Shown here piece after piece: positions 1-18,114 of a stretch of 64,000 nucleotides of DNA. How positions within the stretch are numbered: position 1 is the first letter of the stretch; the number at the start of each line of letters is the position of its first letter. Source of the stretch: Fragilariopsis cylindrus CCMP1102 (lineage: Eukaryota; Bacillariophyta; Bacillariophyceae; Bacillariales; Bacillariaceae). Location of the stretch: positions 1,054,001 to 1,118,000 of the forward strand of contig FMBT01000291.1 of the NCBI GenBank assembly GCA_900095095.1. Reading direction: 5' to 3'. The translations under genes and the position numbers were made by a program. The notes beneath the pieces were generated by a model, which saw only the letters and a list, made by a program, of their open reading frames with translations, was not told the DNA's origin and did not search any database.

Positions 1-119
1 AACCTGCAAATCAATACAGACACTTTACGACAGTAATAAATAGACAAGTTGCTAATACCTATTCTCCACCTCGTCTAGACAAATAAATAAACAAATAAAC
101 AAATATATTCAATTTCATC

Positions 120-1923: not shown

Positions 1924-2341
1924 GGAAAAAAAAGCAACGAATATAGTACTTAAAAGAATTCTGCAAAATTGTAGTTGTCCTGGATTTCGCGGATATGTGA
2001 TGATGTGCATGAACGCACGCACATATTATATGCGTTTCATTCTTGTCTTTGTCTCAGTTAACATATATATATATTCCAGTGAAGCTTTCCTCATCCGTCT
2101 AAGTCGTTTAAAATTAGAAACCTATGTATGTCTGATGCGATACATATTTGTTTATGGTATCGATTTAAAATAAAATAAAACAAAAATGCGGCATTATTTC
2201 TCCTTAACTCCTCACTATATTATTATCATTTTATTTTATCTACCGTAGACACTAAATAGAATCCTAACGACGAATGATTGATTAGCAGCTAGCATGCAAT
2301 TTATTTACTGATGAGGGCCTTTTAGTTTCTCTTGTTCAATA
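1924..2341. other. Intergenic, convergent 3' ends
   Basis: AT-rich spacer between the convergent kinase gene and the small membrane-protein gene. I see no coding signal beyond chance open frames. TA-rich tracts probably belong to the two 3' untranslated regions. Confidence 0.5.
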
Positions 2342-2758
2342 TTATATCAGACCGTTGCTAGCCAGGAAGACAACCACCAGTACGGCTAAAACAACAAGAA
2401 CACCTCCCCCTAATTTCAACGCTTGTTCTAGACCATTACCTCGTTCTGCCACTGTTTCATCCTGAATTGGAGAAGAAAGGAATCCAGTATAATATTCTTT
2501 TGTACCTACCTCAACTACCGCTTCTTCTTCCATTATTATCTTGTCATCATTGTCATTGTCGTCGTCCCGTTTAATTTTGTCAAAAAGACAAGTATTTATT
2601 CCTCGCTGTTCCTTTCTTCTGACCGAAAATAATAGTGGGCAAGTCGCTTTCGTACTATGATGATGCGAGACTTCGAACGCCTCGAGCACTGGAAATATAC
2701 ATAATGCAACAACGATCATCATCGTCGTCGTCATCGTCATCATCATCATCATTGTCAT
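2342..2758 (-). CDS. Small single-span membrane protein, possibly plastid-targeted
   Basis: A 138-residue frame. It opens with a Met/Thr-rich stretch (CAT/CGT repeats in the DNA), then a hydrophobic segment around residues 14-26 ending in LEAFEV. That arrangement, a signal peptide followed by Phe, is the pattern of diatom plastid-targeting presequences, though the match is imperfect. The middle is acidic. Residues about 115-135 form one clear transmembrane helix near the C-terminus, preceded by the conserved-looking EYYTGFLSSPI and ERGNGLEQALKLGGG segments. I do not recognise the family. The Met cluster makes the exact start uncertain. It ends about 75 bp from the giant transposon, which inserted just upstream of it. 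Confidence 0.55.
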   Translation of the reverse strand: MTMMMMMTMTTTMMIVVALCIFPVLEAFEVSHHHSTKATCPLLFSVRRKEQRGINTCLFDKIKRDDDNDNDDKIIMEEEAVVEVGTKEYYTGFLSSPIQDETVAERGNGLEQALKLGGGVLVVLAVLVVVFLASNGLI

Positions 2759-2834
2759 CGTAGAAGATTTATATTTTTAATTTTATTATTTTAGAACGAA
2801 ATACTCTAGCCTATACCACTGTACAGCAGCTACT

Positions 2835-3010
2835 GGGCCTTCCGTTAGTAAGTCAGTCGTGCACTAAACGCGATTGAAATCAAGATAATTATGTGGGATT
2901 AAATTTTAGCGAGCGAGCGTGAATTTTTTTTGAGAGCGTGTCCAACCAACGGAAATGCTTACGCGCGCTACTAAAATTTTCGGCGATTTAAATAATTTTT
3001 ATTTGGGGGG
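2835..3010 (+). repeat. Left terminal inverted repeat
   Basis: Matches the complement of 17937-18112 with small gaps. Well-kept blocks are GGGCCTTCCGTTAGTA, TCGTGCAC, TTAGCGAGCGAGCG, the T-run followed by GAGAGC, CAACGGAAAT, ACGCGCG and TTTCGGCGAT. By eye identity is roughly 75-80%. Confidence 0.88.
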
Positions 3011-3039
3011 GCTCTTTATAAAGGGGGCAGTATGATCTG

Positions 3040-3130
3040 AAACAAGGTGAAAAAGTTTCACCTTGTTTGACAAACAAGGTGAAACGTTTTCACCTTGTTT
3101 TCCCCTTGTTTGACAAGGGAACGTTCTTCC
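3040..3130. repeat. Left subterminal palindrome cluster
   Basis: Four copies of the half-site AACAAGGTGAAA in alternating orientation, so adjacent copies form hairpins separated by GAC or a few bases. A variant pair built on CCTTGTTTGACAAGGG follows. The same half-sites fill the right subterminal region. Such inward repeats next to TIRs are commonly transposase or accessory-protein binding sites; that role here is inference. Confidence 0.75.
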
Positions 3131-3157
3131 CCTTTTTCACACGCTACTGCCTATCAG

Positions 3158-3165
3158 TATATAAG
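3158..3165 (+). promoter_or_regulatory. TATA-like box
   Basis: TATATAAG lies 65 bp before the ATG at 3223. A TATATAAA on the opposite strand lies about 60 bp before the ATG at 8976, a similar spacing, which supports both as core promoters of transposon genes. Confidence 0.35.
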
Positions 3166-3222
3166 AAATAAGAACACAAGAACATATTCTTGTTGTTGTT
3201 TCTTGTGTGAATATTAACGACC

Positions 3223-3588
3223 ATGGCGAAAAGAAAAGCTGATACTGCTACTACGTCCACGCTAGTACACACGCTAGAATATTGTCGTTTACTACCACAA
3301 CAGATCATTCACTGCTATGCTGCTACGTCCACGCTAGTAGTACACACGCTAGAATATTATCCTTTACTACCACAACAGATCGTTCATTCGGCGGTCCACG
3401 CTGGGTCGTAGTGGTAGCGATGACATGATACACGATGAGTGTGTGTTTTGTGTTCTACTTTCCTGTCGAAGTGGTAGCGAAATATCTACTACACATGAGA
3501 TGAGTGTGTGTTTTGTGTTTCACTTTCTCATAATAAATACATTGTATAAGTTTAGAAGTACAATAATAAACTAACTACATTCATTAGT
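3223..3588 (+). repeat. Leader region with two tandem duplications; possible first exon of the 3589 gene
   Basis: Two copies of a roughly 70-bp unit (GCTACGTCCACGCTAGTA to CACAACAGATC) occupy about 3249-3383. Two copies of a second unit (GTGGTAGCGA to GTGTGTTTTGTGTT) occupy about 3410-3525. An ATG at 3223 in good context (ACCATGGCG) opens a 62-codon frame starting MAKRKADT, ending at 3411. Just before the next gene's ATG at 3589 sits CTAACTACATTCATTAG, which looks like a branch point and acceptor. So 3223 may begin an upstream exon or untranslated leader spliced to 3588, or may be a small separate gene. I could not fix a donor. Confidence 0.4.
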
Positions 3589-5679
3589 ATGCATCTCTTT
3601 AACAACGACGATGGCAAAACAGTCAACATGGAATTGCCAAAGAAAGACGATGTCTTGGCAAGTCTTAGGTTTCGGAACCTTTTATTACAACAACGCTTTA
3701 TAAAGCAGATCAAGAAGGCTGAAGAAGAAAAAGAAGAAGCTGCATTGAAGGCTAAAGAAGAAAAAGAAAAAGCTGCATTGAAGGCTAAAGAAGAAAAAGA
3801 CGAAGCTGCATTGGAGCTCAAGAAGGCTACAAACTGCAACGAATTATTCAAGACGATGTTGGTTAATATGAATAAATTAGTTGGAGAATCAAAGGAAGAG
3901 CTTTCTTTGAAGAAAGAATTAGTAGAACGCATCGACGCGTTCGAGGTTGAATTACAAGATTCAAGAAGACGTAATGAAGAGAAGGATGATCATATTCAAG
4001 CGCACATTCAAACCATAGAAAATTCAGGAAGACGTAATGAAGAGAAGGATGTTCATATTCAAGCGCACATTCAAACCATAGAAAAATTTAAGGCTCTTAC
4101 TAATGCTGCAGACGCTCAATTGGCGATAAAAGACACTCAATTGACTATTTCCAGAGCAGGGGAAGAGGCGGCTGAGATTCGTGTACAGTCGACTTTACAG
4201 GATGGTATAGAGAAGGATGGTCAAATTCAACGCATCGTTGATCAAAACACTCAATTGACGATTTCTGAGGCTCTTTCCAGAGCAAGGGAAGTGGAGGCTG
4301 AGATTCGTGTAGTGGGTTTAGAGTCGACTGTAAAGACTTTACAAGGAGAGGCGACGACTTTAAAGAGTCGTGTAGAGTGTTTCGGAGGTCTGGAGAGAGA
4401 ATTAGAAGACACAAAACGCGAGCTTTCTTCTTCAAAGGATCTGTCGACGGAACAGGCAAACAGGCTACAAGCTTCGAAGAAAGACTTAGAAGACACAAAA
4501 CGCGAGCTTTCTTCTTCAAAGGATCTGTCGACGGAACAGGCAAACAGGCTACAAGCTTCGAAGAAAGACTTAGAAGACACAAAACGCGAGCTTTCTTCTT
4601 CAAAGGATATGTCGACGGAACAGGCAAACAGGCTACAAGCTTCGAAGAAAGACTTAGAAGACACAAATCGCGAGCTTTCTTCTTCAAAGGTTACGTCGAC
4701 GGAACAGGCAAACAGGCTACAACAAGAATTACGAACGAATCTTGAAGAAACGAAGGCAGTATCAGAGTCTCAAGGCAAAGTCATAATCTTGAACAATTCA
4801 CTGTTAGAGAGTCAAAATCAAGAGCTTAGCAGATGTCAAACACTCCACGATAAAGCAACAAAAGTGGTAGACGAACAAAAAATTGAAATAGGAACTCTGT
4901 CTACAAGTCTTACCCTTGCAACCAACTCATATAATGAATTAAAAGCTTGGATTGACGAACAAAAAAATGAAATTACGACTCGTACAACTCTTGCCTATGC
5001 TATCAAATCAGGTAAAATTTACCCACTTGATACCCTTGCGAAGATGAAGAATTTTGTCCGTATTGTATGTAAACGCTTCAAAGACACCACCAGCCATCCT
5101 GTCGATCCTTCTTCTTTTTTCCCAATTGAAGCAGATACGATCCCAACTAATTTACTGCAGGCATTACGTAAGGATCAAGAACTGATAAACCTAATTGAAT
5201 CCGATAATGTTCTTGTAAGTACTTTCTATGAACTTATACGAATGTCATTTGTTGGGGAAGAAGTAGTTGGCGTTGATTATCTTGACACTATTTTAAGATT
5301 CCATGCATGGGTAAGCGAAATGATATTCAAAAATCGTCCTAACTTGTTACTGGCAATCACCAAAATTAAAGCAGTAACTGGCAGAAAAAGGAAGGCCACA
5401 GACACAGGTAAGATTAACCTAACATATACCGCAAGACGTAACGAAAAAGAAGGTTCATTAATTACAGAACCCTGCTTTGGAACGGTAGGAGATGCGCCCC
5501 AAACTAGATCAATTTTGTTACATGAACGTATTGACAATAGACGTTGGCATGCTTATTTACTAAAGAAAGATGGACTAGGCAAGTTATTCTGTCCCTTTTG
5601 TGAACTTTCCTTCAAAACCCAAGGATTTACTAACCATGTAAAAGGCTGTGCACTGCATCCGAAGAGGAAGAAGAAGTAA
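3589..5679 (+). CDS. Coiled-coil protein with C-terminal C2HC zinc finger (transposon left-end gene)
   Basis: A 696-residue frame, unbroken. The N-terminal two thirds is a long coiled coil rich in Lys, Glu and Ala, with KAKEEKE repeats, two SRRRNEEKD-type units and four near-identical 28-residue units. A globular region (about residues 470-600) follows, then a basic patch (GRKRK) and a C-terminal finger CPFC-x11-H-x3-C ending in KRKKK. The gene at 13873-15990 shares this order. The segments VSTFYELI/FRTFNDLI and AWVSEMIF/GWIGTNVF align, and the finger spacing is identical. The DNA segment encoding the RRNEEKD unit is almost identical in both. A role in DNA binding or transposition-complex assembly is likely but inferred. 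No close named family is recognised. Confidence 0.75.
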   Translation: MHLFNNDDGKTVNMELPKKDDVLASLRFRNLLLQQRFIKQIKKAEEEKEEAALKAKEEKEKAALKAKEEKDEAALELKKATNCNELFKTMLVNMNKLVGESKEELSLKKELVERIDAFEVELQDSRRRNEEKDDHIQAHIQTIENSGRRNEEKDVHIQAHIQTIEKFKALTNAADAQLAIKDTQLTISRAGEEAAEIRVQSTLQDGIEKDGQIQRIVDQNTQLTISEALSRAREVEAEIRVVGLESTVKTLQGEATTLKSRVECFGGLERELEDTKRELSSSKDLSTEQANRLQASKKDLEDTKRELSSSKDLSTEQANRLQASKKDLEDTKRELSSSKDMSTEQANRLQASKKDLEDTNRELSSSKVTSTEQANRLQQELRTNLEETKAVSESQGKVIILNNSLLESQNQELSRCQTLHDKATKVVDEQKIEIGTLSTSLTLATNSYNELKAWIDEQKNEITTRTTLAYAIKSGKIYPLDTLAKMKNFVRIVCKRFKDTTSHPVDPSSFFPIEADTIPTNLLQALRKDQELINLIESDNVLVSTFYELIRMSFVGEEVVGVDYLDTILRFHAWVSEMIFKNRPNLLLAITKIKAVTGRKRKATDTGKINLTYTARRNEKEGSLITEPCFGTVGDAPQTRSILLHERIDNRRWHAYLLKKDGLGKLFCPFCELSFKTQGFTNHVKGCALHPKRKKK
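4402..4737 (+). repeat. Four 84-bp in-frame tandem repeats
   Basis: Each unit encodes 28 residues beginning LEDTKREL and ending NRLQASKKD. Copies start near 4402, 4486, 4570 and 4654 and differ by only a few bases, pointing to recent expansion. The 84-bp period keeps four heptads, so it lengthens the coiled coil without disturbing register. Confidence 0.9.
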
Positions 5680-6119
5680 CGAGCATTGTTCCTCTTATCA
5701 CACACACGAAGAATCTTTCTTTTATGACATCAAGGCATGCTACTTACTGTTACGTTCGCGGTACGGGACATATTCAGAATAGTAGTAATATAGCATAGAG
5801 GGAGGACGAAAAGAAGAAGAAAAACAAGACGAAGATTTATTGAACGAACAAGAAGAGCAGATACAAACAGCACAAACGAGAACGAACGAACAGTATAGAT
5901 TCATAATCACCTAACAATAGTTATATTATATAGCGATACGATATTTGTATTTACTTATTTTAATGATGAACGCTCAATGCGTTTATTCTATTATCAATCA
6001 TGAATGAGATGATGCATACACATCATTCTTCTATCTTTCTTCCTTTCTTATATACACTAGTAGTTCTCTACGTAGTATTATTGCTTCCTCTCTTAATCTA
6101 TACACGAAATTGCTCCACG
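5680..6119. other. Transposon spacer between convergent genes
   Basis: About 440 bp between the 3' end of the 3589 gene and the minus-strand gene whose frame can be followed to 6120. It is purine-rich on the plus strand near 5800-5860. A 67-codon hydrophobic frame at 6000-6203 has no support and overlaps the minus-strand extension. Confidence 0.5.
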
Positions 6120-6269
6120 TTATTTCTTTTCACACATATGTTGTTCCAGCTCATCAAGAATAGCACCCGCCTCCGTGAGAGTTTTTACAGGGTCGACATC
6201 TAAGGAAGAGTCGGATTGATTACCATCAACAAATGAGATAAAGGAATCATCACTCTCCCCTAGTAGAAG

Positions 6270-8976
6270 TCATTCTTCATTCATTGCCGTTTCAGCAGCA
6301 TCACCTTGAGCTAAGATTCGGTCCATGTCAAGTGCACCGCCCACAATGTTATCCCACATGCCTGCAGTTTGAATAATGGTACGTTGGCCTCGCAGACTGC
6401 GGCGAAGAGGAGTTGTAGTAACTTCATTTCTTGTAGTTTCTGCCTCCGCTGGAACAACCATACCTCCTGCTGTTTCTGCCGCTGCTGTACCTTCTTCACC
6501 TCCTGTTATTCCTGCCGCCGCTGTAATTCCATTACCTGAAATTCTTCTCCTAAGAATCTGCTCATCCCTCTTCTTAGCAAGACGACTCAAGTGTGCATTA
6601 GCCCTCTTATCCTTTTGGACACCTGTTTTGATTGTCCGACCTTCTCTATCGTCATTGGCTCTTTCCTTACGACCTTCCCCCCGTTGCATTTCATAATAAT
6701 CACTACGATCAGTAGTGTACTCACGTTCCTTGGGCGTTTTGGGAGAAGAGCGTTCCTTTGGCGGTTTGGGAGGAGAGGGTTGTACAAATGCTGCTGCTTC
6801 AGTAGTAGTAGCATGAGTAGAGGATTGTACTTGTTCACGACAAAGTCGGTCGTTCTCTTGTTGCTGTTGTTGTGGTTGCACAGCTTCTTGTTCACGACGA
6901 TCGTTCTCTTGTTGTTGTTGCACAAGTTGCGTATCGCTGTATACCTGTTGTTGTTGTTGTTGTTGCTGAAGACGAAGCCCGTCGTTCTCTTGTTCTTGTT
7001 TTTGTTGCACAAGTTCCCCAGCTTGTTGTTCACGACGAAGCCGGTCGTTCTCTTGTTGTTGTTGCACAAGTTGCGTATCGCTGTATACCTGTTGTTGTTG
7101 TTGTTGTTGTTGCTGAAGACGAAGCCGGTCGTTCTCTTGTTTCCCAGCTTCTTGTTCACGACGAAGCCGGTCGTTCTCTTGTTTCCCAGCTTCTTGGTCA
7201 CGACGAAGCTGGTCGTTCTCTTCTTGTTGTTGCGCAGTTTGTTGTCGCTGTTCCGTAAGAATGTTCGAAACGGTTTTAGAAAGATGCACTTTTGCATCAT
7301 TTGTGGCTTTCAATTTTTCAACAAATTCTTGTTCAGTTCTAAGACGCATTTCATCGTATTGGCGACGCTCTTCCATAAGATTATCTCTTAGAATTTGTGC
7401 TTCACGACGGTCTTCTTCGAATTGACGTTGTTGTTCAGCAAGTATACGACGCTGTTCTTCGATGTTGATTCTTTCGGTATCTTCATCTTCTTCTTCTTCC
7501 TTCATCTCCTCATCCCCATCCTCATCCTCATCCTCATCTACACCATCTACATTAGATGCTACAATAAATAAATAAAGTAATAAATATAGAAAGTAATAGT
7601 TTTCGTGAGAACAAATAATATTACTAAGATTAAAAATACCACAGTATATAGATTAAAAATACCACAGCATGTATTACGCACCGAGAGAAGGGTCCACAAC
7701 GACACTCATCGATTTCGTTGCCATAGAAAGCTGTGCCAAGTAATCAGTGGTTGATTCCATAGAAACTTCTAGTAGTTTCAAAGTGTCTGGAATAGCAACG
7801 CGGAATTCCAACGAAAGGAGGGGAACTTTTACCCCTGTTTTAGCCAACAACTTCCATTGGGTTTTCAATTCTTCTTGAACCTTGAGGGTTTTCTCACCGG
7901 CCCATGACACAGACCATTCTCCTTCTTCGTACATCAAAATTCCCGTACTGGAGTTCGTCGTGTGCTTATTAGTAACCTGCCAAGGTAACCTGATAGCGAA
8001 CATGTGGACAAGCTCATCCTCCTTTCCATTTCTTATGAGTGTTTTCATTCTTGCCCCCATCTCTTTATGCTTGTTTGCGACGTGGGATGCGGCTAATTCC
8101 TCGCCGTACAGGCCGACAGTATTGTATTGCGATTGCCGATGCTTCGGAATCTTCACGATGAGACGATTTCCTTCAGCAATCACAAGACCATGACGTCCTT
8201 CAGTATAGTCATCGGGATCGCTGATAGGTAATGATATAACAAGATAGTCGACTGACTTACTTCCATTATTAATAGCATGTCCTTCTTCCATAACGAAAGA
8301 CAAGCCCTCGATTTGGATATGTTCTGGAAATTCAAGAGCGTTTTTGGATAGAATATGATCTTTCATTTTTGAAGGCGTTATTGTTGTAGAAGGCAACAAA
8401 TGAGGTAAAGTGTTGGGATATTTTTCTTTCGAGACTGGTTGTGATGGCCTGAGATTAAGTTATGAGAAATTACAATAAGGCTCTTGTGTGTGTGAGAAAC
8501 AACCGATGGAAGTAGAAGAAGACACAGGAGTAAAGGGAAACCAACACAATAGGAAAACGGAAAACTTACGATGCGTTTGCGTTGATTGTAATGTTGTTGA
8601 CTTCACGTGTAGTATTAGCCGGAGGAGTACTTTGAATCCTGGCAGAGTCAAGACGCGAAGTTATATGAGGAGTGCGATGAATCCTGGCAGAGTCAAGACG
8701 CGAAGCTATATCAAAGTCGCGGAGAAGTTCGTTATATTTGTTTTCTTTGTAGTAAAAGTTGTACCAGTACTTTACGATTTCTGCTGCTTGCCGACGACGA
8801 GGATCACCGCGTTTACCAAATAGATCAGGTAATTTATCTAGCAATGGTTTGATAAGTTGTTCCTTTCCGTATTGTTTGTTACGATATCTATCTATACCAC
8901 CGGTCCGTTCAATTTGTTGTAGCAAGGTTTTTTGAGCGATGGTAGATAATGGAGAGTAGAATGTTTGCTGTTGCAT
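6270..8976 (-). CDS. Spliced transposon gene: helical N-terminus, unknown middle domain, Gln/Glu-rich coiled-coil C-terminus
   Basis: Proposed exons 8976-8570, 8448-7682 and 7558-6270, 820 residues. The first join is secure: the frame from 8976 runs into a GTAAGT donor, the acceptor at 8449 restores the frame, and the intron is 121 bp. The second join uses donor GTGCGT at 7681 and acceptor TTGTAG ending at 7559. It gives a 123-bp intron and keeps phase, whereas without it the protein stops at 7674 and the downstream frame has an unexplained acceptor. The N-terminus (about 95 residues, with a GGIDRYRNKQ segment and RRRQAAEIVKYW) is helical and basic. The middle is a mixed alpha/beta domain of unknown family. 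The C-terminus is EEQRR/LRREQEAG coiled coil broken by Gln runs from CAA repeats, then a basic region. The frame stays open 49 codons past the stop at 6270-6272, to 6120. Function unknown. Confidence 0.65.
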
Positions 8977-9030
8977 TTTACTCTTCTGGCAAAAAGAACT
9001 ATGAGACGAAACTGTTGCTTTCAGCTACAT

Positions 9031-9038
9031 TTTATATA
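9031..9038 (-). promoter_or_regulatory. TATA-like box for the 8976 gene
   Basis: On the minus strand this reads TATATAAA about 55-60 bp before the ATG at 8976, matching the spacing at the left-end gene. Confidence 0.35.
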
Positions 9039-9108
9039 CACGGCAGATAGTGTAGAAAACGCAACGACCTTGAGTCGGTTCATTTCACTGGAACGTAGAA
9101 CCCGCTGC

Positions 9109-9600
9109 TACTCACAACATGCGCTTTGTGAATCGTTCCTGGCTCTTGTATTTGGCGGTGTCGGTACTCACAACATGTGCTACGCACAACGTGCGCTTTG
9201 TGTATCGTTCCTGGCTCTTGTATTTGGCGGTGTCGGTACTCACAACATGTGCTACGCACAACGTGCGCTTTGTGTATCGTTTCTTGCTCCTGTTTTTGGT
9301 GTTGTCGCTACTCACAACATGTGCTACTACTCACAACATGCGCTTTGTGAATCGTGTTTCTTGCTCTTGTATTTGGCGGTGTCGCTACTCACAACATGTG
9401 CTACTCACAACCTGCGCTTTGTGAATCGTTTCTGGCTCCTTCCTGTATTTGGTGTTGTCGCTACGTACTCACAACATGTGCTACTCACACAACGTGCGCT
9501 TTGTGATCGTGTTTGTTGCTCTTGTATTTGGCGGTGTCGGTACTAACAACATGTGTTACTCACAACCTGCGCTTTGTGAATCGTTTCTGGCACCTGGCTA
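9109..9600. repeat. Degenerate tandem array of about 72-bp units in a divergent promoter region
   Basis: Around seven units share the core ACTCACAACATGTGCTAC, then CGTGCGCTTTGTG, ATCGTTCCTGGCTC and TTGTATTTGGCGGTGTCG. Units near 9166-9309 are almost identical, while flanking ones carry indels. The array lies between the divergent genes starting at 8976 (minus) and 9869 (plus). Several open frames cross it in both strands, but they are products of the repeat and have no independent support. The palindromic core ACATGT and GC-box-like GGCGGTGT could be protein-binding sites. Confidence 0.8.
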
Positions 9601-9868
9601 CACATGGGCTTTGTGTTTCGTTTCTTGCTCCTATTACCTTCCTTCCTCCTATATATTTGAAATGAGCGAAATTTACGCGAGCTACATGCAGTACGGCCGG
9701 TAGGCGATAAGAAAAATTTCTTATACGTACAAGTAGGCGATAAGAAAATTTCTTCACGCGTGCAAAGTCACGCATCGACGAAATATGTTCGCGCCAAAAA
9801 CCGGAACAATTAATTGTGTCATAAGAAATTGCCCGCACAAAACAACAAGAAGACAAGAAAGTTTCAAC

Positions 9869-10705
9869 ATGGCGAAGAAGAAAAAGAATTCATTGCGTGC
9901 TGGTATAGAAGCCGAAGCCGAGATCCTCACCAAGATGATAAGACCACAGGTAGAGGTACCTCATAAAGATCATAGAAGCCGTGTCGTTATAGTTGATCGC
10001 GTTGAAGAAAAGGGTAAATACCGTTTTACCTTCCATTTTGTTGGTGCCGACGAAAATCAGTTTAATGGATCTGTTCAATATGTCACTATTATTAAAGAAG
10101 GCAATCCGTTACTCTTTTTTAGTATCATTGAGACTAACAAAAACAGCAGCAACAAGTTTCCGGAACCGGATATAGGGTGGGCGAAATCAAGAGCAAGGAA
10201 ACTGCTTTATATGGATGTGAAGACAGGAATGGTGCCTTTACATGCCAGGGTAAACGGGAAGAGAACCACGGATAACACAGTCGTTTACATGATGGAAGAG
10301 GAGTACAACTTGTGGAGCTATAAAAAGTTTTCAGGTAGATTGGCAGGCATACGGCGTATTATCAACACAAAAAATGGCAGAGCAGAAGACGATCAGAAGG
10401 CTTTTGATAAATTTGTTGAAAACAATGAAGTATCAACAGTGAGTCACAAAGGATACATTCAATGGCAGGGATCAAACGCACAACGGCTGTTGAAAAAAGA
10501 TATCAAGGACGGGACATTGTATAAGTATACGAAAGAGAACTATCCTAAGCATCATAAGATGCAATTTTGGCTAACAAGACCAGAATACTACGATGAGTTT
10601 CCTTTGTCGGTCTTTCGTGATAAGATCAGGCAAGAAATTGGTTCGGCAAAGTACCTACACACGTTGAAGGTTAGGGGAAAGGCAGCAACGTATAAATACA
10701 ATTGA
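9869..10705 (+). CDS. Transposon protein with an internally duplicated unknown domain
   Basis: 278 residues from the ATG in CAACATGGCG (start MAKKKKNSL); the frame is open a further 28 codons upstream, but this start has the better context and matches other transposon genes. After a Lys-rich N-terminus and a beta-rich region, two copies of one domain are visible. Copy one runs GWAKSRARKLLYMDVKTG to EEEYNLWSYKKFSGRLAGIR. Copy two runs QWQGSNAQRLLKKDIKDG to RPEYYDEFPLSVFRDKIRQE. Shared pattern: W-x2-S-x-A-x2-LL-x2-D-[VI]-K-x-G, then a variable stretch, then E-[EP]?-Y and F-x4-[IL]. Both copies are basic, so nucleic-acid binding is plausible, but no named family is recognised. Confidence 0.7.
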   Translation: MAKKKKNSLRAGIEAEAEILTKMIRPQVEVPHKDHRSRVVIVDRVEEKGKYRFTFHFVGADENQFNGSVQYVTIIKEGNPLLFFSIIETNKNSSNKFPEPDIGWAKSRARKLLYMDVKTGMVPLHARVNGKRTTDNTVVYMMEEEYNLWSYKKFSGRLAGIRRIINTKNGRAEDDQKAFDKFVENNEVSTVSHKGYIQWQGSNAQRLLKKDIKDGTLYKYTKENYPKHHKMQFWLTRPEYYDEFPLSVFRDKIRQEIGSAKYLHTLKVRGKAATYKYN

Positions 10706-10760
10706 ATTATCTCTTCATTCTTCTTTTATAATTAAATTACTATAATTATTATTATTATTA

Positions 10761-10990
10761 ATATACCACACTATTAAGTATGGTGATTACTTCATTTTCT
10801 TCTTTTTTCAAGCAAAATGATCAATTATTTGTATTCTTTACACGGCGGCGGAGGCGGCTACGTTATTATTAACATAGATATCATACCACACTATTAGTAT
10901 GGTGATTACTTCACTTTTTTTTCTTCTTTCAAGCAAAATGATTCTTTTCACACATATTTGTATTCTTTAGACGGCGGCGGATGCGCCTAA
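10761..10990. repeat. Direct repeat downstream of the 9869 gene
   Basis: Two roughly 100-bp copies, 10761-10860 and 10883-10989, share ATACCACACTATTA, GTATGGTGATTACTTCA, TTCAAGCAAAATGAT and TTTGTATTCTTTA-ACGGCGGCGGA. The second copy overlaps the 3' end of the minus-strand gene ending at 10929, so the first copy is probably a duplicate of that gene's tail. Confidence 0.8.
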
Positions 10991-11477
10991 TGTATGTGCA
11001 GTTGTAGTTGGAAGATGTATGTGCAGTTGTAGTTGGGAAACCTTCAATTTCCATTGGCTTAAAGCTATGACCAGTTGTACCAATACCATTCTGCGAGGAA
11101 GAAGAAGAAGAAGAAGAAGAAGAAGAAGACGAGGTATTGTGATTTTCTTCATATGGGTCGGCATGATCACGATATTGAATGATTTGAACATCTTCGTATC
11201 TTCCACCGAGGAAAGTATCATCAACTTTCCCAATACGAATTTCATTTTCTGAAAATTGAGCTAGTACTGTTCCGAAGATTTTGCTAGCATCCTTGGCAAT
11301 ATCATCCGATGATACTGGAAAGTCTGCGGATAAACGAACAAATATTTTTCCATTCGAATCAGAACATGATGTCACTTTTAGTTCACCCTCGATTGAAGTT
11401 TTCTCTTGATGTGTGTTCGATTTTGGTTTGCCAGGATGCCACCATTCTTTAATATGGTTCGCAAAGTAAGTTAACAT
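10929..11477 (-). CDS. Unknown transposon protein, Ser-rich
   Basis: A 182-residue frame starting MLTYFANHIKEWWHPG. The first 110 residues look globular, with alternating hydrophobic stretches (KIFVRLSADFPV, DVQIIQYRDH). A 13-Ser run from CTT repeats follows, then a tail whose DNA is repeated downstream. Nothing in it identifies a family. It sits tail-to-tail with the 9869 gene and head-to-head with the 11808 gene, and its 330-bp upstream region is shared with the latter. Confidence 0.5.
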   Translation of the reverse strand: MLTYFANHIKEWWHPGKPKSNTHQEKTSIEGELKVTSCSDSNGKIFVRLSADFPVSSDDIAKDASKIFGTVLAQFSENEIRIGKVDDTFLGGRYEDVQIIQYRDHADPYEENHNTSSSSSSSSSSSSSQNGIGTTGHSFKPMEIEGFPTTTAHTSSNYNCTYIRRIRRRLKNTNMCEKNHFA

Positions 11478-11807
11478 GATCTTAACAGAATTCTTTTCTT
11501 ATGAGGAGACGACGCAACCATTTTTTTGAAGGAAAATTCTTTCTTATTCAAGAGCGACCGTTAAAGTAGCGACATTTCGTATGTCCGTTTGTTATCGCTA
11601 ACGTTAGTAAGATAAGTACAAAAGAAAACTTGAAATAACATCGCATGACACAAGACGACACATAACAAACTATAACCGCCACCCTGCATGCAAACCCGTC
11701 AAAACAAAAGGAACGACTTTTACGATACGCTTGGTATTGTTGTCACCATAAAACGAAAAGCCGCACAAAACTTTTCAAATTCATTTTTGATTACAAATCA
11801 CATCAAC

Positions 11808-12470
11808 ATGGACGATAAAGCAAGATCAGAGGTAGTCAGACAGCGTCTTAACGCGAAGTTAGCTTCACGTACTGTTAGTACATCTACAGCTGACGATTTT
11901 GTTCGTCACTTACACAGTTTCAAATACACCTTCTTGAAGGAAACCGACCGTTCTGCCACCTTTTTTTTCCCCATCGACGATGATGATGATGATGATGATG
12001 ATGATGTGCCGCCTCCACTGATCCCGCGTGCAGATGTAACAGAATCAGACGATGACAACGATGATTGCGTTCCCGATCCTGCCTCTTCTGCCACCGTTCC
12101 TGCCAACGTTGTTGCCATGGGAAAGGCTCTTGAAGATACTTCAAGCACACCAGGAGAAGGACTAGGAGCTTCGACTGGAGAGACACTTTCGGACGAAGGG
12201 GCAGGAGAAGATTCGTCTGTATGGGTTGCGGGTTCCAATGAAAATGAACTAGGTCCCCTCAGCTACTTCGATCCAGATGTCTTGCGTGTTACAAGAAAGG
12301 TTATGCATCTACAGGTCGATCAAAAGAAAGTAGAATTACGAAATCTTGGTATGGAGGTCCCAGATGATCTATCGATTTTACAAGGTTTAGACACATGGTC
12401 ATTGTTCGGATTCATTAATGAAGCTTTGGAAAAAGATCCTGCTACTAATCTATTCTACCAACAGCTCTAA
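11808..12470 (+). CDS. Unknown acidic transposon protein
   Basis: 220 residues from CAACATGGAC (MDDKARSEVV); an upstream in-frame codon at 11688 is less likely. Helical N-terminus, then a segment FLKETDRSATFFFPI, a ten-residue Asp run from GAT repeats, a Pro/Ser/Thr/Glu-rich middle without predicted structure, and a conserved-looking C-terminus (YFDPDVLRVTRKVMHL, then VELRNLGMEVPDDLSIL). Function unknown. Acidic and probably nuclear if it partners with the basic transposon proteins (inference). Confidence 0.55.
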   Translation: MDDKARSEVVRQRLNAKLASRTVSTSTADDFVRHLHSFKYTFLKETDRSATFFFPIDDDDDDDDDDVPPPLIPRADVTESDDDNDDCVPDPASSATVPANVVAMGKALEDTSSTPGEGLGASTGETLSDEGAGEDSSVWVAGSNENELGPLSYFDPDVLRVTRKVMHLQVDQKKVELRNLGMEVPDDLSILQGLDTWSLFGFINEALEKDPATNLFYQQL

Positions 12471-12495
12471 AATGAAACGAGATATTGATACAAAA

Positions 12496-12750
12496 GCGCA
12501 AAGCATACTAATAATCGGCCGATGTATTTGTTTACACCGTCTTGATACAACAAACTAACTAATATGACTAATCGAACGTCCAGTCTTCACTGACGAATGA
12601 ATTAACTGTGTACGATAATTAACACAAAGCATACTAATCGGCCGATGTATTTGTTTACATCATCTTGATACAACAAACTAACTAATATAACTACTAATCG
12701 AACGTCCAGTCTTCACTGATGAATGAATCAACTAACTGTTTACGATAGAT
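12496..12750. repeat. Two-copy direct repeat of about 125 bp
   Basis: Copies at about 12496-12620 and 12622-12750 share AAAGCATACTAAT, ATCGGCCGATGTATTTGT, TTGATACAACAAACTAACTA, AATCGAACGTCCAGTC and TTCACTGA-GAATGAAT. The repeat lies between convergent gene ends. CGGCCG and GTTTAC stand out, but I see no coding role. Confidence 0.85.
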
Positions 12751-12871
12751 AATAATACAAGCAATTATTTTAAATATACAAATATATGATTTAAAAGGTT
12801 AATTTATTATTATAAGTAGATACTTTTACTAACATTAACAACTGAATACATCGTAAGATTTTAAATTTCCT

Positions 12872-13249
12872 CTAAAATCCAAATCTATACCACGGTTTCT
12901 TTTTCTTCTCTCCATTACCACTTTCAAAGGCACGGATATAATCCTCGCAGATACCTTGTAAAGACGTCTCCTGGGCGATCTCAGTGTCAAGAGCCGCTTC
13001 TTCATCAGCAGAAGCTTGAGCCTGAGCAAGATGATAGTCTGCTTGAGCATCATGGATTACCCGAGAGGCTTTATCCGCGGATAAAGAAATTTTTAAAGCA
13101 AGATGATGGTCAGCTTGAACATCATGGAATACCCGAGAGGCTGTAGCCGCGGATAAAGAAGTTTTAAACTTTGCAATCTTCGCCTTACTTTCGATGCGAT
13201 GGGCAGCAGCAGGAGTACTGGGAGACTTGGGAGATCTAAAAGGAGACAT
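12872..13249 (-). CDS. Unknown small transposon protein with internal repeat
   Basis: A 125-residue frame, MSPFRSPKSPST onward. Two units, FKTSLSAATASRVFHDVQADHH and LKISLSADKASRVIHDAQADYH in outline, follow each other and are also repeated in the DNA. The rest is Ala/Glu-rich and helical, with a basic C-terminus. No family recognised. It is divergent from the 13873 gene. Confidence 0.45.
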   Translation of the reverse strand: MSPFRSPKSPSTPAAAHRIESKAKIAKFKTSLSAATASRVFHDVQADHHLALKISLSADKASRVIHDAQADYHLAQAQASADEEAALDTEIAQETSLQGICEDYIRAFESGNGEKKKKPWYRFGF

Positions 13250-13872
13250 GGCAAAAGTACTAAAAGAAGAGGATTATAATAAGAGTAAAGGATTCAACGT
13301 TTCAATATGTTCGAAACAACGTTTTATGAGCTACTGTCAAGAAAAAAAGAAAGAAGAATTTTTGTGTTATCACGCTATAACAATAGCGTATCATTCAAAA
13401 CTTGAATTAAAAATATTCATTGTTCCATATCGTGGAAAAAGCACGATAACGCGGTTACTCCTAACTTTTTAAACCATCTTGTTTCGTCTTGTTTGAAAAA
13501 CAAGTTCGAACGAAAGAAGTTGAATTTTAATCACGAATGCCAAAACGAACTTAACACGTTCTTATTCTTATCAACCTTACCATGCATAAACGAAATTGAT
13601 GATTCTTATCAAACCAACAGACACCTGCAATATGTACAACCATCGTGTACGATACGTTTTCGTATTTACTTACAACAGACAAGGAGAGTTTGACGACTAT
13701 TCGCTATGCTTTAAGCGGTTGTAACGAGTGTTCTAACAAGATGTGTAGTCATATTTTTTTAAACAGAAATAACAAAAGCATTCATAAATTTGAAAACCCG
13801 AAATTACAAAAGCATCTTGTTTATTTTAATCTTTCACCTGGATACCAAAGGCATAGAAACAAAGGCAAGACA
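13250..13872. other. Divergent promoter region within the transposon
   Basis: About 620 bp between the starts of the 12872-13249 gene (minus) and the 13873 gene (plus). It contains a CTTGTTTCGTCTTGTTTGAAAAACAAG hairpin-like stretch near 13478-13505, a relaxed version of the subterminal palindromes. The plus-strand frame of the next gene is open from 13645, so its protein could start earlier. Confidence 0.4.
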
Positions 13873-15990
13873 ATGGTAGACGTCAACAACATCAACGATG
13901 AAATCAACGATGACATCAACGATGACATCAACGATGACATCAACGATGACATCAACGATGACATCAACGATGACATCAACGATGACGACGCGAACAACAA
14001 TAACAGAAGAAACTGTATTGATGTCAATCGCTGTATTGATGTCAATCACTGCTACTTTGCTTTTAGCAAAGTTGTCCTTAGATATTCGTTTGCATTAAAT
14101 CGATTTCTTACATGGAAGATTAAGCATGTAAGAGAGAAGCTTATGATATCAATCGCAGAGAAGGATGCAACAATCTGTTATTTTGATGGGATGCATCCCA
14201 GAGTTTTGGCTGATCTACAAGATTCAAGAAGACGTAATGAAGAGAAGGATGAGTCTCTCGAAGCAGAGACGAACTTAAAAGCGATAGCCGAGGGTAAAGT
14301 GGTTCGTTTACAGACTCGTGTAACGACTTTAGAAGAAGAAGCGACTTTACAGGGTGAGTCTCTCAAAGCAGAGACGAACTTAAAAGCGACAGCCGAGAGT
14401 AATGTGGTTCGTTTAGAAGAAGAAGCGACTTTACAGGGTGAGTCTCTCAAAGCAGAGACGAACTTAAAAGCGACAGCCGAGAGTAATGTGATTCGTTTAC
14501 AGACTCGTGTAACGACTTTAGAAGAAGGAGTGACTTTACAGGATGAGTCTCTCAAAGCAGAGACGAACTTAAAAGCGACAGCCGAGAGTAATGTGGTTCG
14601 TTTACAGACGTCTCTGGGAGAGGAGGAGAAGTTAAAAAAAGAAGCTTCGAAAATGGTCGATTTTTTACACGAAAAGCGATGTGAAGAAAAAGAAACTTCA
14701 GAACAGAATGCTAAGGGTCTTCAATTCAAATACGAGCAAACAGAGAAGGAGAAAAAAACTCTTAAAGATGATCTTACATCGACCACTAACGACCTCATGA
14801 ACGCAAATGGTAAACTCAAGACATCCGATGGTAAACTCAAGACATCCGAAAAGGCGAAGGTTGCCCTTAACAAGAAATTACAAGAAACAATCAAGGCGCT
14901 AGCTTTAGCGAAAGACGGTACTCATCTTGAATATGTGACTAGGATTGACAAGAATCGTAATTACAAAGCGTCAAAGCTTCAAGAGCTGACCGATTTGGCT
15001 GAGTTGTTATACAAAAAGTTTTTAGAAAAAGATCTTCCCAAAAACAAGGATAATGAAGACTTTCCATTCCCACTCAAGGAAGTTGCCAACGGAGGCGTTC
15101 TTTTAGAGTTGGAACAAGAAATTGATACTATTGTTGAAATCAAATCTGATCAAATTCTCTTTCGTACCTTCAATGATCTTATCTGGAAAATATTCTTCAA
15201 CGACAAGAGTACTAAGACATATGATGTTTTCTTATCCTTCAACGGATGGATAGGCACGAACGTGTTTGATCCGAGGAACGCATTAAACTGTACGATCAGG
15301 AAGAAGCGTAAAAGAGAAGAGGAGGAGTCTACAGCTGCTTCGAAGGTGAGGCGGCAATCAGCTCTTTCGTCAACTTCTAGTCCTACTAATTCTGTGCCAG
15401 CTGGTGGTTCTAGTTCTTCTGCGAGTGGAAGCTTAGCATCACCTACAGGAAGTACTACTACTACTACTTCTACTACATCTACATCTACATCTACGTCCAG
15501 CAAGGCTGGTGGTTTGGCATGGAGAGATTTGTCAGATGGAGCAAAAACTCACGCAAAGAATCTAAAATACTCTCGATATAGTTGGGATAATTTTGGGACT
15601 GTAAGTTCTTTTTCAAGGAAACTAAGTGATTTGAATCCTGAAGAGAAAGCAGCGGTAGATTTCTTATTTGAAGGGGAATGGCCTCCGGCATACGCAGGAG
15701 GCGCAGGTTTTGAGAGCAACTTTGTTTGTGCTAAGCTTGATGCCAAGGCTGGTACATTTTTTATTGACAGAACCGGTGTCCGTTTTTTTTTGATTCGATC
15801 TAATGGTAATAATAAATGGGATGCCATCCGTCTGATTGAGAATAAAGAAGAAAAAACATGTAGATGCCCCTTCTGTAAATCATGGAAAAATAATAAGGGA
15901 ATTCATATGCATGTGAGTCGTTGTCCCGAAAACAAGACCGAGGCCAAGAAGAAAGTTGCAGGTAAAAAAGGTACATCAAACAAAAACTAG
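13873..15990 (+). CDS. Coiled-coil protein with C-terminal C2HC zinc finger (transposon right-end paralog)
   Basis: 705 residues from ACAATGGTAG (MVDVNNIND); up to 76 more if translation begins at 13645. The N-terminus has a repeated INDD tract, then a hydrophobic and basic segment, a long coiled coil built of repeats (SLKAETNLKATAESNVVRL units) and an RRNEEKD unit shared with the 3589 gene. A globular region matches that gene (FRTFNDLIWKIFF, then FNGWIGTNVF), followed by a basic RKKRKREEEE patch. A Ser/Thr-rich linker comes next, then an extra domain absent from the left-end gene (LAWRDLSDGAKTHAKN to GVRFFLIRS), and last the finger CPFC-x11-H-x3-C with a Lys-rich tail. Clearly a diverged duplicate of the left gene. 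Likely DNA-binding; exact role unknown. Confidence 0.72.
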   Translation: MVDVNNINDEINDDINDDINDDINDDINDDINDDINDDDANNNNRRNCIDVNRCIDVNHCYFAFSKVVLRYSFALNRFLTWKIKHVREKLMISIAEKDATICYFDGMHPRVLADLQDSRRRNEEKDESLEAETNLKAIAEGKVVRLQTRVTTLEEEATLQGESLKAETNLKATAESNVVRLEEEATLQGESLKAETNLKATAESNVIRLQTRVTTLEEGVTLQDESLKAETNLKATAESNVVRLQTSLGEEEKLKKEASKMVDFLHEKRCEEKETSEQNAKGLQFKYEQTEKEKKTLKDDLTSTTNDLMNANGKLKTSDGKLKTSEKAKVALNKKLQETIKALALAKDGTHLEYVTRIDKNRNYKASKLQELTDLAELLYKKFLEKDLPKNKDNEDFPFPLKEVANGGVLLELEQEIDTIVEIKSDQILFRTFNDLIWKIFFNDKSTKTYDVFLSFNGWIGTNVFDPRNALNCTIRKKRKREEEESTAASKVRRQSALSSTSSPTNSVPAGGSSSSASGSLASPTGSTTTTTSTTSTSTSTSSKAGGLAWRDLSDGAKTHAKNLKYSRYSWDNFGTVSSFSRKLSDLNPEEKAAVDFLFEGEWPPAYAGGAGFESNFVCAKLDAKAGTFFIDRTGVRFFLIRSNGNNKWDAIRLIENKEEKTCRCPFCKSWKNNKGIHMHVSRCPENKTEAKKKVAGKKGTSNKN
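13898..13986 (+). repeat. 12-bp coding tandem repeat
   Basis: About seven copies of GATGACATCAAC encode repeated Asp-Asp-Ile-Asn. The period is a multiple of three, so copy changes keep the frame. Confidence 0.9.
14240..14620 (+). repeat. Coiled-coil coding repeats
   Basis: Alternating units of GAGTCTCTCAAAGCAGAG-ACGAACTTAAAAGCGACAG and CAGACTCGTGTAACGACTTTAGAAG recur four times with near identity, mirroring the 84-bp expansion in the left-end paralog. Confidence 0.85.
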
Positions 15991-16310
15991 CTATCAAGAG
16001 AAGAAGAAGAAGAAGAAGAAAATGATCGATTGCACGGCTCAGTAACGCTATTCTGTATCCAAAATTCTACTTGAAAGCGTTTTTATAGGACATACGAGGA
16101 ATTCGATTTACAATTACATATAGAATAAGGTTGTTTATTATAGAGAAGAACACACAGAACACAAGAAAATGCTTCGTCTTTTTACTAGCTATTAGTACTA
16201 CATAAGATTCTTTATCTATGTATTATTGCGAGTAGGACTACTGATGTGTTGATAATAATAGCACATAGAAATGAATGTGTGTTATATATCTTTAACTATA
16301 CGGTACTGCT

Positions 16311-17411
16311 CTACTCCTCGTCATCATCTTCCTCATCATCTTCCTCATCATCTTCCTCATCATCTTCCTCATCATCGTCATCACCCGACATATCTTCCAT
16401 GTCACTATCAGAATCTTCTTCTGCGTCTTTTAGGATATCTTCAACAAGAACGTCCCACAATGGTTCTTCCGATTCAATTTTATATTGGCAAATAACAGCA
16501 ACCGCTTCGAAAGCTCTTCCAATTTTACCCGGTCCGTGTCGGAATCGTTCTCGAAGAATTTGAAAACTCTTTGTCATTCCATTAAAGCCTTCATGTCGTT
16601 TTAGGGCCCTTGATTTAAACAATTTGACTGGACGAGAGTCGTGAGTGTTCGGTGAAGAGATAGCTTCTTGATGACCAGAATAACCACCATCTCCAATTGC
16701 TTTCTTTTTTAGTTGTAGCAGTCTCTCTTTTAGACCAGCTAAAGTGAAAATATTCAGGTCGTTCTTTCCTGCTTTGAAAGGCCCTGCCATCCAGATTAAT
16801 TTTGATGAAGCAATAGATATTCCAAGCTCATAATTAACTCCTGCTTTGTTGAATTTGTGGCTGTAGTATTCACTATCTTGAGAAAATTCAGGATGACCAG
16901 GCTCGTACATCCACACGTGTGTGCCATCGACTGTCATAATCCATATATCCTCACCACCTAACTCATCTGGCCAAGTAATCTTCTTGAATTGAAGATATTG
17001 AATCTTTTCGATTATATCCCATATGTTTGTTCGAGCCCATCCTTTATTTATTTTCAGTACTCTATCAATGTCGTCTTCTGTAGGATATTTCCTCAAGTAG
17101 TAGAAAGTCCGCAAGAACCATTGTAAGTTAGTTATTGATCCTTTGAGACGCATTGATCGTGGTGGGTTCGTAGTTGTATCTTCCGCAGTTGAGGTTTGGA
17201 GATCTTCGTATATTCTACACATTGTTGTCGGTGTAACCCCAAACGTAGCTTCGAACCGATACTGATTTGTTTTATCGCCACATCTCCGTAGCTGCTCTTC
17301 ATCGTATTTGACTGTTAAAAGACCTAACCTCAATATTTCGTCATCTGCAACGACATGAGTAAGTCCGCTGTTCCCAGTAGGAATTTCTTCTTCTTCTATG
17401 ATGCCTTCCAT
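16311..17411 (-). CDS. DDE transposase (DDE_Tnp_4 / PIF-Harbinger-ISL2EU-like)
   Basis: A 366-residue intact frame. The catalytic triad is readable: Asp162 in TVDGTHVW, Asp241 in IGDGGYSG, and Glu274 in KRHEGFNG. The segments YYSHKFNKAGVNYELGI, WMAGPFKAGKND and FKSRALKRHE are typical of a large transposase family spread through protists and assigned to the DDE_Tnp_4 superfamily. The N-terminal 150 residues are helical and probably carry DNA binding. The C-terminus is an unusual Asp/Glu run encoded by a CTTCCTCATCAT repeat. It sits 700 bp from the right TIR, transcribed inward, with a TTTC microsatellite just upstream. It should cut at the TIRs and reinsert the element. Assignment to DDE class is firm; the exact family is tentative. 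Confidence 0.85.
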   Translation of the reverse strand: MEGIIEEEEIPTGNSGLTHVVADDEILRLGLLTVKYDEEQLRRCGDKTNQYRFEATFGVTPTTMCRIYEDLQTSTAEDTTTNPPRSMRLKGSITNLQWFLRTFYYLRKYPTEDDIDRVLKINKGWARTNIWDIIEKIQYLQFKKITWPDELGGEDIWIMTVDGTHVWMYEPGHPEFSQDSEYYSHKFNKAGVNYELGISIASSKLIWMAGPFKAGKNDLNIFTLAGLKERLLQLKKKAIGDGGYSGHQEAISSPNTHDSRPVKLFKSRALKRHEGFNGMTKSFQILRERFRHGPGKIGRAFEAVAVICQYKIESEEPLWDVLVEDILKDAEEDSDSDMEDMSGDDDDEEDDEEDDEEDDEEDDDEE

Positions 17412-17449
17412 TTCTTTCTTGTGTAATGTGTGTTGTGTGTATCGTGTTT

Positions 17450-17568
17450 TTCTTTCTTTCTTTTCTTTCTTTCTTTCCTTTCTTTCTTTCCTTTCTTTCT
17501 TTCCTTTCTTTCTTGTGTTGTGGTGTAGTTTTTCTTTTCTTCTTTCTTTTCTTCTTTTCTTCTTTTCT

Positions 17569-17612
<44 letters not shown>
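17450..17612. repeat. TTTC/TTTTC microsatellite
   Basis: About 160 bp of pyrimidine repeat directly upstream of the transposase start, on its promoter side. Frames through it (poly Lys/Arg/Glu or Phe/Ser/Leu) are artefacts. Confidence 0.9.
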
Positions 17613-17629
17613 GTGTTATGTGTACGTTC

Positions 17630-17915
17630 CCTTGTTTGAAACAAGGGAACAAAGCACGAGGATTTGCACGCAAACAACAAGGGAACACTTTGTTCCCTTG
17701 TTTTCACCTTGTTTCTCAAACAAGGTGAAAACACGCGAGGTTTTGCACGTTAAAACAAGGTGAAAAGTTTCACCTTGTTTCAAACAAGGTGAAAACACGC
17801 GAGGTTTTGCACGTTAAAACAAGGTGAAAACTTTTCACCTTGTTTGACAAACAAGGTGAAAACGTTTCACCTTGTTTGACAAACAAGGTGAAAAAGTTTC
17901 ACCTTGTTTCATACC
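17630..17915. repeat. Right subterminal palindrome cluster
   Basis: About eleven half-sites AACAAGGTGAAA in alternating orientation form stacked hairpins. A 38-bp spacer (ACACGCGAGGTTTTGCACGTT core) occurs twice. A variant hairpin GTTCCCTTGTTTGAAACAAGGGAAC is at 17631-17655, matching the variant at the left end. The right cluster is larger than the left. Confidence 0.85.
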
Positions 17916-17936
17916 CCTAATATATCTCAATTTTAT

Positions 17937-18112
17937 CCCCTCCCCTGAAATAATTATATCGCCGAAATGTTCTGGTCGCGCGCGTAAAAATTTCCGTTGG
18001 GCTGGCATGCTCTCAAAAAAAAAAATACTCGCTCGCTCGCTAAATTTTAGTCCCAAGCCATTGTTTGATTTTAATCGTGTTTGGTGCACGATTGACTACT
18101 AACGGAAGGCCC
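17937..18112 (-). repeat. Right terminal inverted repeat
   Basis: Complement of the left terminal repeat; see that entry for shared blocks. The outermost bases read GGAAGGCCC at 18106-18112. Confidence 0.88.
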
Positions 18113-18114
18113 TG

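Follow-up and report, generated by a model that had tools for sequence, protein, structure and literature searches.

What kind of unit occupies positions 2833 to 18114 of a 64-kb stretch from the diatom Fragilariopsis cylindrus CCMP1102 (C90:1054001-1118000 of a 67.9-Mb assembly in 818 contigs, the whole stretch here called the window)? The first-pass annotation, made from the letters alone, had proposed a single large transposon with terminal inverted repeats (TIRs), carrying one DDE transposase and many other genes. The window element, here W, is very probably a giant and likely self-sufficient cut-and-paste transposon of the PHIS (PIF/Harbinger) superfamily, which duplicates CWG on insertion and which holds, beside its transposase (g10) and a presumed partner protein (g5), eight further open reading frames (ORFs) as cargo, partly exchanged with other giant elements.

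The ends of this single 15.3-kb mobile element can be placed to the base. W spans 2836-18111, between two CTG target duplications at 2833-2835 and 18112-18114, exactly the extent first proposed. Both ends begin with GGCCTTCCGTTAGTA and are inverted copies of one another, with 90% identity over the first 30 alignment columns and 74% over 280, and blast aligns the TIRs at 77% over ~265 bp (E 3.8e-49). The sequence CWGGGCCTTCCGTTAGTA occurs 40 times in the assembly with at most one mismatch (24 exact), as against no occurrence of the reversed control. The palindromes that had been noticed near the termini are 29 bp long and lie inside the ends: their half-site AAACAAGGTGAAA, with at most one mismatch, is present in 16 places of the window (15 of them exact), every one within the two ends of W, compared with 0.25 expected, a count reached by none of 100 shuffles. 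An Rfam scan of the window gave no match.

That these ends bound one unit is borne out by a second version of the locus. Contig C331 matches window 1-2805 (99%), then has 41 bp, and then matches window 18115-19571 (94%), with no W sequence in between. Since the flanks are joined there without W, the element is absent from this version, which is most likely the other haplotype of the locus. The empty site that the first-pass annotation had envisaged thus exists, and it lacks the entire 15.3 kb, so that the TIRs enclose the whole unit and not the transposase part alone, while the inner genes, being absent there from the allele without W, are not fixed host genes of this locus. As a separate observation, the two contigs differ by 6% in the right flank (18115-19571) and by 1% in the left.

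The target rule was settled by short derivatives and by end pairs elsewhere in the assembly. Convergent pairs of exact W-type ends on one contig occur at C83 (0.93 kb apart), C90 (W itself), C202 (1.19 kb) and C470 (0.33 kb), and all four have a matching CWG triplet on both sides. The C202 element has W-like ends (~70-73% over 145 bp), CTG duplications and an interior segment matching window 13629-13815 at 93%, and the C83 element contains 16 exact palindrome half-sites. Other target duplications (AGCTA and others) that can be read by eye at the W junction alone were rejected on the basis of the C202 and C83 derivatives and the exact pairs. Two longer end pairs were also set aside. At C648:128751-164322, two window-type ends, flanked by CTG at either side, lie 35.6 kb apart and are similar over ~30 bp; this pair, judged from its ends, where longer similarity was not seen, counts as a possible and not an accepted element. 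A 44.9-kb TIR pair at C278, with a pair of near-equal length on C70, was rejected because its two ends are of different TIR subtypes; the 3-kb end sequences show no blast similarity to each other, and the ORFs just inside them look host-like by eye.

The DDE transposase expected in the unit is g10, in which D162, D241 and E274, which we take to be the catalytic triad, are invariant in all 25 aligned sequences. DDE_Tnp_4 (PF13359) is matched by 20 of these 25 members, the window protein itself staying below Pfam significance. In the protein database, g10 has at least 169 relatives at E<=0.001 (7,998 candidates with the most words in common scored), those named among the matches listed being from Nitzschia inconspicua (47%) and a Bacteroidota metagenome-assembled genome (MAG; 57% over 62% of the query). 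For g5 there are 95 relatives including itself, with a Bacillariaceae MAG (38%) and a Bacteroidota MAG (40%) among those named; the Bacteroidota labels are taken as mis-binned eukaryotic contigs. Within the genome, g10 has 26 matches to other transposases, with 32-38% identity at best over long stretches and up to 61% over short pieces. By comparison, a genome-wide search with g5 (E<=0.001) gave only two other matches, both inside elements related to W (below): in element D, ~16 kb from its transposase, and in element E, ~2 kb from it; a weaker relative (28% identity) lies in element B. Five source-contig sizes coincide among the listed transposase and g5 relatives, three from the same source (3505 jgi, 4435 ena, 5605 lgn) and two from different sources (1333, 1609), which is a hint, not proof, that relatives of the two proteins share contigs. 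The best weak domain match among g5 and 42 relatives is ELK, in 2 of 43 (E 0.002), and two further g5 relatives have a precomputed SAP domain. Profile searches of solved structures gave one match for g5 (E 0.14) and none for the transposase, and nothing usable.

Because of its transposase type and its CWG duplication, W is placed in PHIS as a NuwaI-like element. PMC4482050, which like the other papers below is cited from excerpts, defines PHIS groups by their target duplication, with CWG assigned to NuwaI. With the superfamily W shares a transposase of DDE_Tnp_4 type, TIRs and a 3-bp duplication (CTG/CTG in W, B, D and E). Strict PIF/Harbinger elements duplicate TWA, and W duplicates CTG; the first-pass label of a PIF/Harbinger-like element is therefore right for the superfamily and wrong for PIF/Harbinger in the strict sense. 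The likeness to NuwaI as described in that excerpt extends to a 5'-CWG-3' duplication, a DDE transposase with a separate second ORF, and a TIR starting with G. However, autonomous NuwaI candidates average ~4,462 bp, with mostly two ORFs, the second of Myb/SANT type, and TIRs of 12-61 bp, and are reported there from 16 animal genomes and from animals only, whereas W is a 15.3-kb element (relatives 20.0 and 26.7 kb) of a diatom, with ten ORFs, a TIR of ~265 bp at 77%, and a partner protein without detectable Myb/SANT domain, as in 42 of its relatives. On this comparison by description, W appears NuwaI-like within PHIS, which is short of proven membership in NuwaI.

The features of W, with relatives in the same genome designated B, C, D and E, are as follows.

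2833..2835, no strand: left target-site duplication CTG; the CWG rule also holds in 4 of 4 convergent exact-TIR pairs
2836..3100, plus strand: left TIR and two subterminal palindromes (3040-3068, 3072-3100)
3589..5679, plus strand: g1, 696 amino acids (aa), coiled coil with C-terminal CPFC...H...C; N- and C-terminal parts common to B
5943..6082, no strand: AT-rich spacer where the 3' ends of g1 and g2 converge; similar to spacers of B and C, which themselves match spacers of D and E
6270..7505, minus strand: g2, 411 aa, glutamine-rich and repetitive, less certain; no Pfam match at E<=1
7674..8366, minus strand: g3, 230 aa; its own sole match in the genome, with six protein-database relatives
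8566..8976, minus strand: g4, 136 aa, basic; no Pfam match above cut-off
9785..10705, plus strand: g5, 306 aa, presumed transposase partner; relatives inside B, D and E, each of which has a transposase as well
10929..11477, minus strand: g6, 182 aa; no Pfam match above cut-off
11688..12470, plus strand: g7, 260 aa; homologue in C, dN/dS (ratio of non-synonymous to synonymous change) 0.39
12538..13710, no strand: block common to B (DNA identity 94.5% to the C164 copy, 90.4% to the C88 copy), includes g8
12872..13249, minus strand: g8, 125 aa; region multicopy in the genome
13741..15990, plus strand: g9, 749 aa, coiled coil with C-terminal CPFC...H...C; 14560-15491 has 93% DNA identity to B
16311..17411, minus strand: g10, 366 aa, DDE transposase (D162, D241, E274)
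17702..17909, no strand: right subterminal palindrome array, 11 exact half-sites AAACAAGGTGAAA
17849..18111, minus strand: right TIR
18112..18114, no strand: right target-site duplication CTG

The ten longest ATG-initiated ORFs in W have 749, 696, 411, 366, 306, 260, 237, 230, 192 and 182 aa, compared with a longest ORF per dinucleotide shuffle (n=100) of 110 aa on average and 171 aa at most. Among the ten described ORFs, those of 749, 696, 411, 366, 306, 260, 230 and 182 aa exceed this maximum, and g4 and g8 lie within the shuffle range. The 237-aa and 192-aa frames both overlap g2, the former in a different frame of the same strand and the latter antisense, and since g2 is also glutamine-rich and repetitive it is less certain than the other ORFs. 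The C-terminal CPFC...H...C residues are invariant in all three sequences compared (g1, g9 and a protein of B). The six database matches of g3 are 59-100% identical, nearly full length and with few gaps. The g7 ratio was obtained over 217 codons, and comparison of g8 with a more distant copy at C306 gave a dN/dS of 0.69.

The four relatives of W were found by following transposase matches and shared DNA, and 13 of their ORFs were scanned against Pfam. CWG stands at every end seen, that is, at both ends of W, B, D and E and at the right end of C. E (C648:462977-468359; 5.4 kb, CTG/CTG, TIR of ~310 bp at 81%) contains two large genes, for a transposase and a g5-like protein, and a 187-aa low-complexity ORF, so that the size contrast with two-gene elements, drawn in general terms by the first-pass annotation, is found within one genome. 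D (C158:110697-130651; 20.0 kb, CTG/CTG, 69-bp TIR block at 88%) contains a transposase, a g5-like ORF of 799 aa and a 2,391-aa ORF with a Ulp1 match. B extends from C88:716168 through the rest of that contig and, via a 706-bp overlap (99.9%), on to C46:170423; it measures ~26.7 kb and is flanked by CTG at either end. A further insertion of B, between different flanks at C164, can be followed for 14.2 kb, to where its contig ends, with 99.3% identity. C (C670, at least 1900-20950, thus at least 19 kb) has a D-type right end, its left end lying beyond the contig, and contains a 2,423-aa ORF with DnaJ and Ulp1 domains, NOT1-like and IQ-motif ORFs, a homologue of g7 and a transposase; the part of C on this contig yielded no g5-like ORF. 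Many short elements carry ends of these types: D-type ends occur in 141 places, against 3 in the reversed control, and B-type ends in 58, against 19, including 7 exact convergent pairs of less than 0.5 kb that all have a shared duplication. B also has a 424-aa ORF (C46:171014-172285, plus strand) with a helicase-associated domain in two stretches (PF03457, E 1.2e-26). Elsewhere, at C83:300324-318278 and C306:92213-104483, Ulp1 matches lie ~3-17 kb from g8-like copies, possibly marking a further giant element; neither region has a transposase match among the genome transposase matches listed.

The relation between these elements differs according to whether transposases or other segments are compared. 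Counting blocks of at least 200 bp and at least 80% identity, with E taken ~22 bp short at its right end, 21 blocks are shared: five by W and B (3,589 bp, mean 89.0%), two by W and C (868 bp, 88.9%), six by B and C (2,499 bp, 88.2%), two by B and D (514 bp, 93.2%), five by C and D, and one by D and E (227 bp, 96.5%, within the g5-like gene), with none between B and E or C and E. In the catalytic region, by contrast, the W transposase is 33-35% identical to the rest (33% to B, 34% to C), that of B is 46-47% identical to those of C, D and E (46% each to C and D), and those of C and D are 57% identical to E and 89% to each other. Block sharing by C and D is expected since they are close relatives. 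For the remaining pairs (W-B, W-C, B-C, B-D and D-E), because the DNA blocks are 80-98% identical while the transposases of those elements are 33-57% identical, the sharing is, as judged by sequence comparison, module exchange, unexplained by descent of whole elements. In B the exchange reaches into a gene: a 751-aa ORF (C88:737756-740008, plus strand) is a mosaic with a g1-like N-terminus (89-99% DNA identity), a g9-like middle (80-93%) and a g1-like end (73%). The g1-g2 spacer of W matches 3' gene-end spacers in B and C, and the E spacer, which lies between convergent genes, matches spacers of B, C and D, so exchange perhaps proceeds through shared gene blocks and 3' spacers. The unrelated-looking genes described by the first-pass annotation do form one unit, with the amendment that several of its segments are common to other giant elements.

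Some of the relatives also contain ubiquitin-like and Ulp1-type domains. The transposase ORF of D (C158:111583-113349, minus strand) has an N-terminal ubiquitin-like domain (PF00240, E 4.9e-13), which aligns with ubiquitin through ...GRLCGG and is followed by a linker and DDE_Tnp_4. The same domain (E 2.3e-13) is found in an ORF of B (C164:483004-484203, plus strand), which an intron-like GT...AG gap separates from the catalytic ORF that follows it, while in C the ORF (C670:19248-20429) retains the last part of the domain including GG; Pfam did not find it in the transposases of W or E. The ~2,400-aa ORFs of C (C670:11789-19057) and D (C158:120335-127507) are 90% identical and contain Ulp1, with DnaJ in addition in C; PF02902 has 11 matches in the genome, two of them in C and D. 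Ulp1-type proteases cleave after the GG of ubiquitin-like proteins, and C and D may therefore process their own transposases.

For W itself, the following mode of movement is proposed. The transposase g10 and its partner g5 would bind the ends, perhaps also the palindrome arrays just inside them, and the two ends would be brought together across 15 kb; W would then be cut out and inserted at a CWG site, with everything between the ends moving along. The eight other ORFs would be cargo, part of which, to judge from the observed blocks, was probably exchanged by recombination with giant elements of the same genome. The first-pass suggestion that the cargo mostly works for the element itself seems plausible to us: ubiquitin-like, Ulp1, DnaJ and helicase-associated domains occur in the relatives, and the ORFs scanned included no recognisable metabolic gene; the same may apply to the cargo of W.

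Several observations weigh against reading W as a self-sufficient giant transposon with exchanged cargo. No second full-length W was found among the 39 of 127 candidates scored and the transposase matches, where the first-pass annotation had proposed looking for several copies with the same ends, and the case for movement of W as a whole therefore comes from a single insertion and a single empty site. Near the junction, several small indels set the C331 allele apart from the joined flanks, with the exact pre-insertion letters not visible, and it is thus an empty allele rather than an exact precursor. The C202 derivative has no palindrome half-site though its ends are alike, making the palindromes dispensable for at least some family members. 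W shares no block of the counted size and identity with D or E, none of g1-g9 passes the Pfam cut-off, and neither g5 nor its 42 relatives show a Myb/SANT domain at E<=0.5. In the segments of g1 and g9 common to B, dN is near or above dS with few changes, and the 125 codons of g8 show 3-9 non-synonymous and 0 synonymous differences from B, so that these comparisons lend no support to purifying selection on g1, g8 and g9.

Part of this evidence could be accommodated by an ordinary element with transposase and g5, bloated by nested insertions of unrelated transposons, in which the cargo would be debris. The internal blocks 12538-13710, 3292-3923 and 14560-15491 recur elsewhere in the genome, and nested insertions feature in most giant families of Ectocarpus in the available part of PMC12477816. 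Inverted 12-bp matches at block ends, which reached at most 9 in 60 random intervals, are background-like (7-9) in 19 of the 21 shared blocks; the other two, the W-B block 12538-13710 and a B-C block with the same B end, reach 10 of 12, and both belong to the multicopy g8 region, which may have been inserted separately. Debris is also difficult to reconcile with ORFs of 749, 696, 366, 306, 260 and 230 aa that remain open and with relatives of g3 and g5 of similar length elsewhere, and this explanation is considered unlikely. A Pack-type transposon with captured fragments of host genes as passive passengers would account for dN near dS in the g1 segment common to B, and gene capture is common in other DNA transposons. 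However, g3 matches nothing in the genome but itself, the two weak matches of g5 lie inside other elements, all eight genome matches of g1 are confined to the window, the C88 part of B and the C46 overlap, and the shared modules run from element to element, leaving little probability for host capture.

The size, inverted ends and multi-gene content of W also recall an integrated virus or a virus-transposon hybrid of Maverick or Teratorn type, and two sub-threshold Pfam matches point the same way: that of g9 (E 0.2; 12.2 bits, the cut-off being 25) to a herpesvirus capsid family and that of g8 (E 0.018) to DNA_pol_A_exo1, both taken as chance. Since no polymerase, capsid or packaging domain lies above cut-off in the 10 window ORFs and the 13 scanned ORFs of relatives, scans of viral contigs with the transposase and g5 confirmed a relative in none of 27 and none of 37 pattern matches, and the 3-bp CWG duplication and transposase are of PHIS type, a viral origin is highly implausible. 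The giant PHIS transposon with partly exchanged cargo thus remains the preferred account of W.

Other described systems close to W include the giant KDZ, EnSpm and Sola-1 elements of Ectocarpus, with maximum lengths of 15.2 to 30.3 kb and many with additional genes (PMC12477816). These are likewise stramenopile giant DNA transposons with extra genes, but belong to other transposase superfamilies than W; the autonomous Harbinger elements of Ectocarpus, in the same excerpt, all have two genes, tail to tail, with ANT or TNA duplications. Ping and Pong of rice (PMC10288884) resemble the present elements in having a transposase with a separate partner ORF, TIRs and small non-autonomous derivatives, and differ in size (~5 kb, compared with 15-27 kb). 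Starship and Teratorn (PMC6431247, PMC10175614, PMC12134995) are also giant eukaryotic elements with many genes, but Starship relies on a tyrosine recombinase and Teratorn combines piggyBac with a virus, whereas W is a DDE element of PHIS; the main text of PMC6431247 mentions neither Harbinger nor PIF. In the open-licence literature, consulted mainly as titles and abstract beginnings, which falls short of proving absence, no description was found of a giant Harbinger/PHIS element or of a ubiquitin-like-transposase fusion in this superfamily. To the first-pass annotation the present analysis chiefly adds the empty allele, a small relative from this genome, the module exchange between giants, and, in relatives, the ubiquitin-like leader accompanied by Ulp1.

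A wider interpretation is offered tentatively, as a possibility that falls short of an even chance. The genome may host a guild of giant PHIS transposons that act as modular islands and, despite differing ends and distant transposases, trade modules again and again, some of them with a circuit of ubiquitin-like leader and Ulp1-DnaJ protein that would release, stabilise or de-conjugate the transposase, and W may be a recent heterozygous member in which a different accessory set (g1-g4, g6-g9) overcomes the size penalty of the superfamily. PIF/Harbinger-type elements have two genes as a rule, and in yeast their larger versions excised and reinserted less well (PMC10288884, as excerpted), which makes elements of 15-27 kb unexpected. 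The 15-27 kb CWG members beside a 5.4-kb member form a natural series in which to study the change from cut-and-paste transposon to gene-carrying island, and allow the question whether accessory proteins lift the size limit to be asked. The ubiquitin-like leader together with an element-encoded Ulp1 in the relatives makes post-translational control of transposition directly testable.

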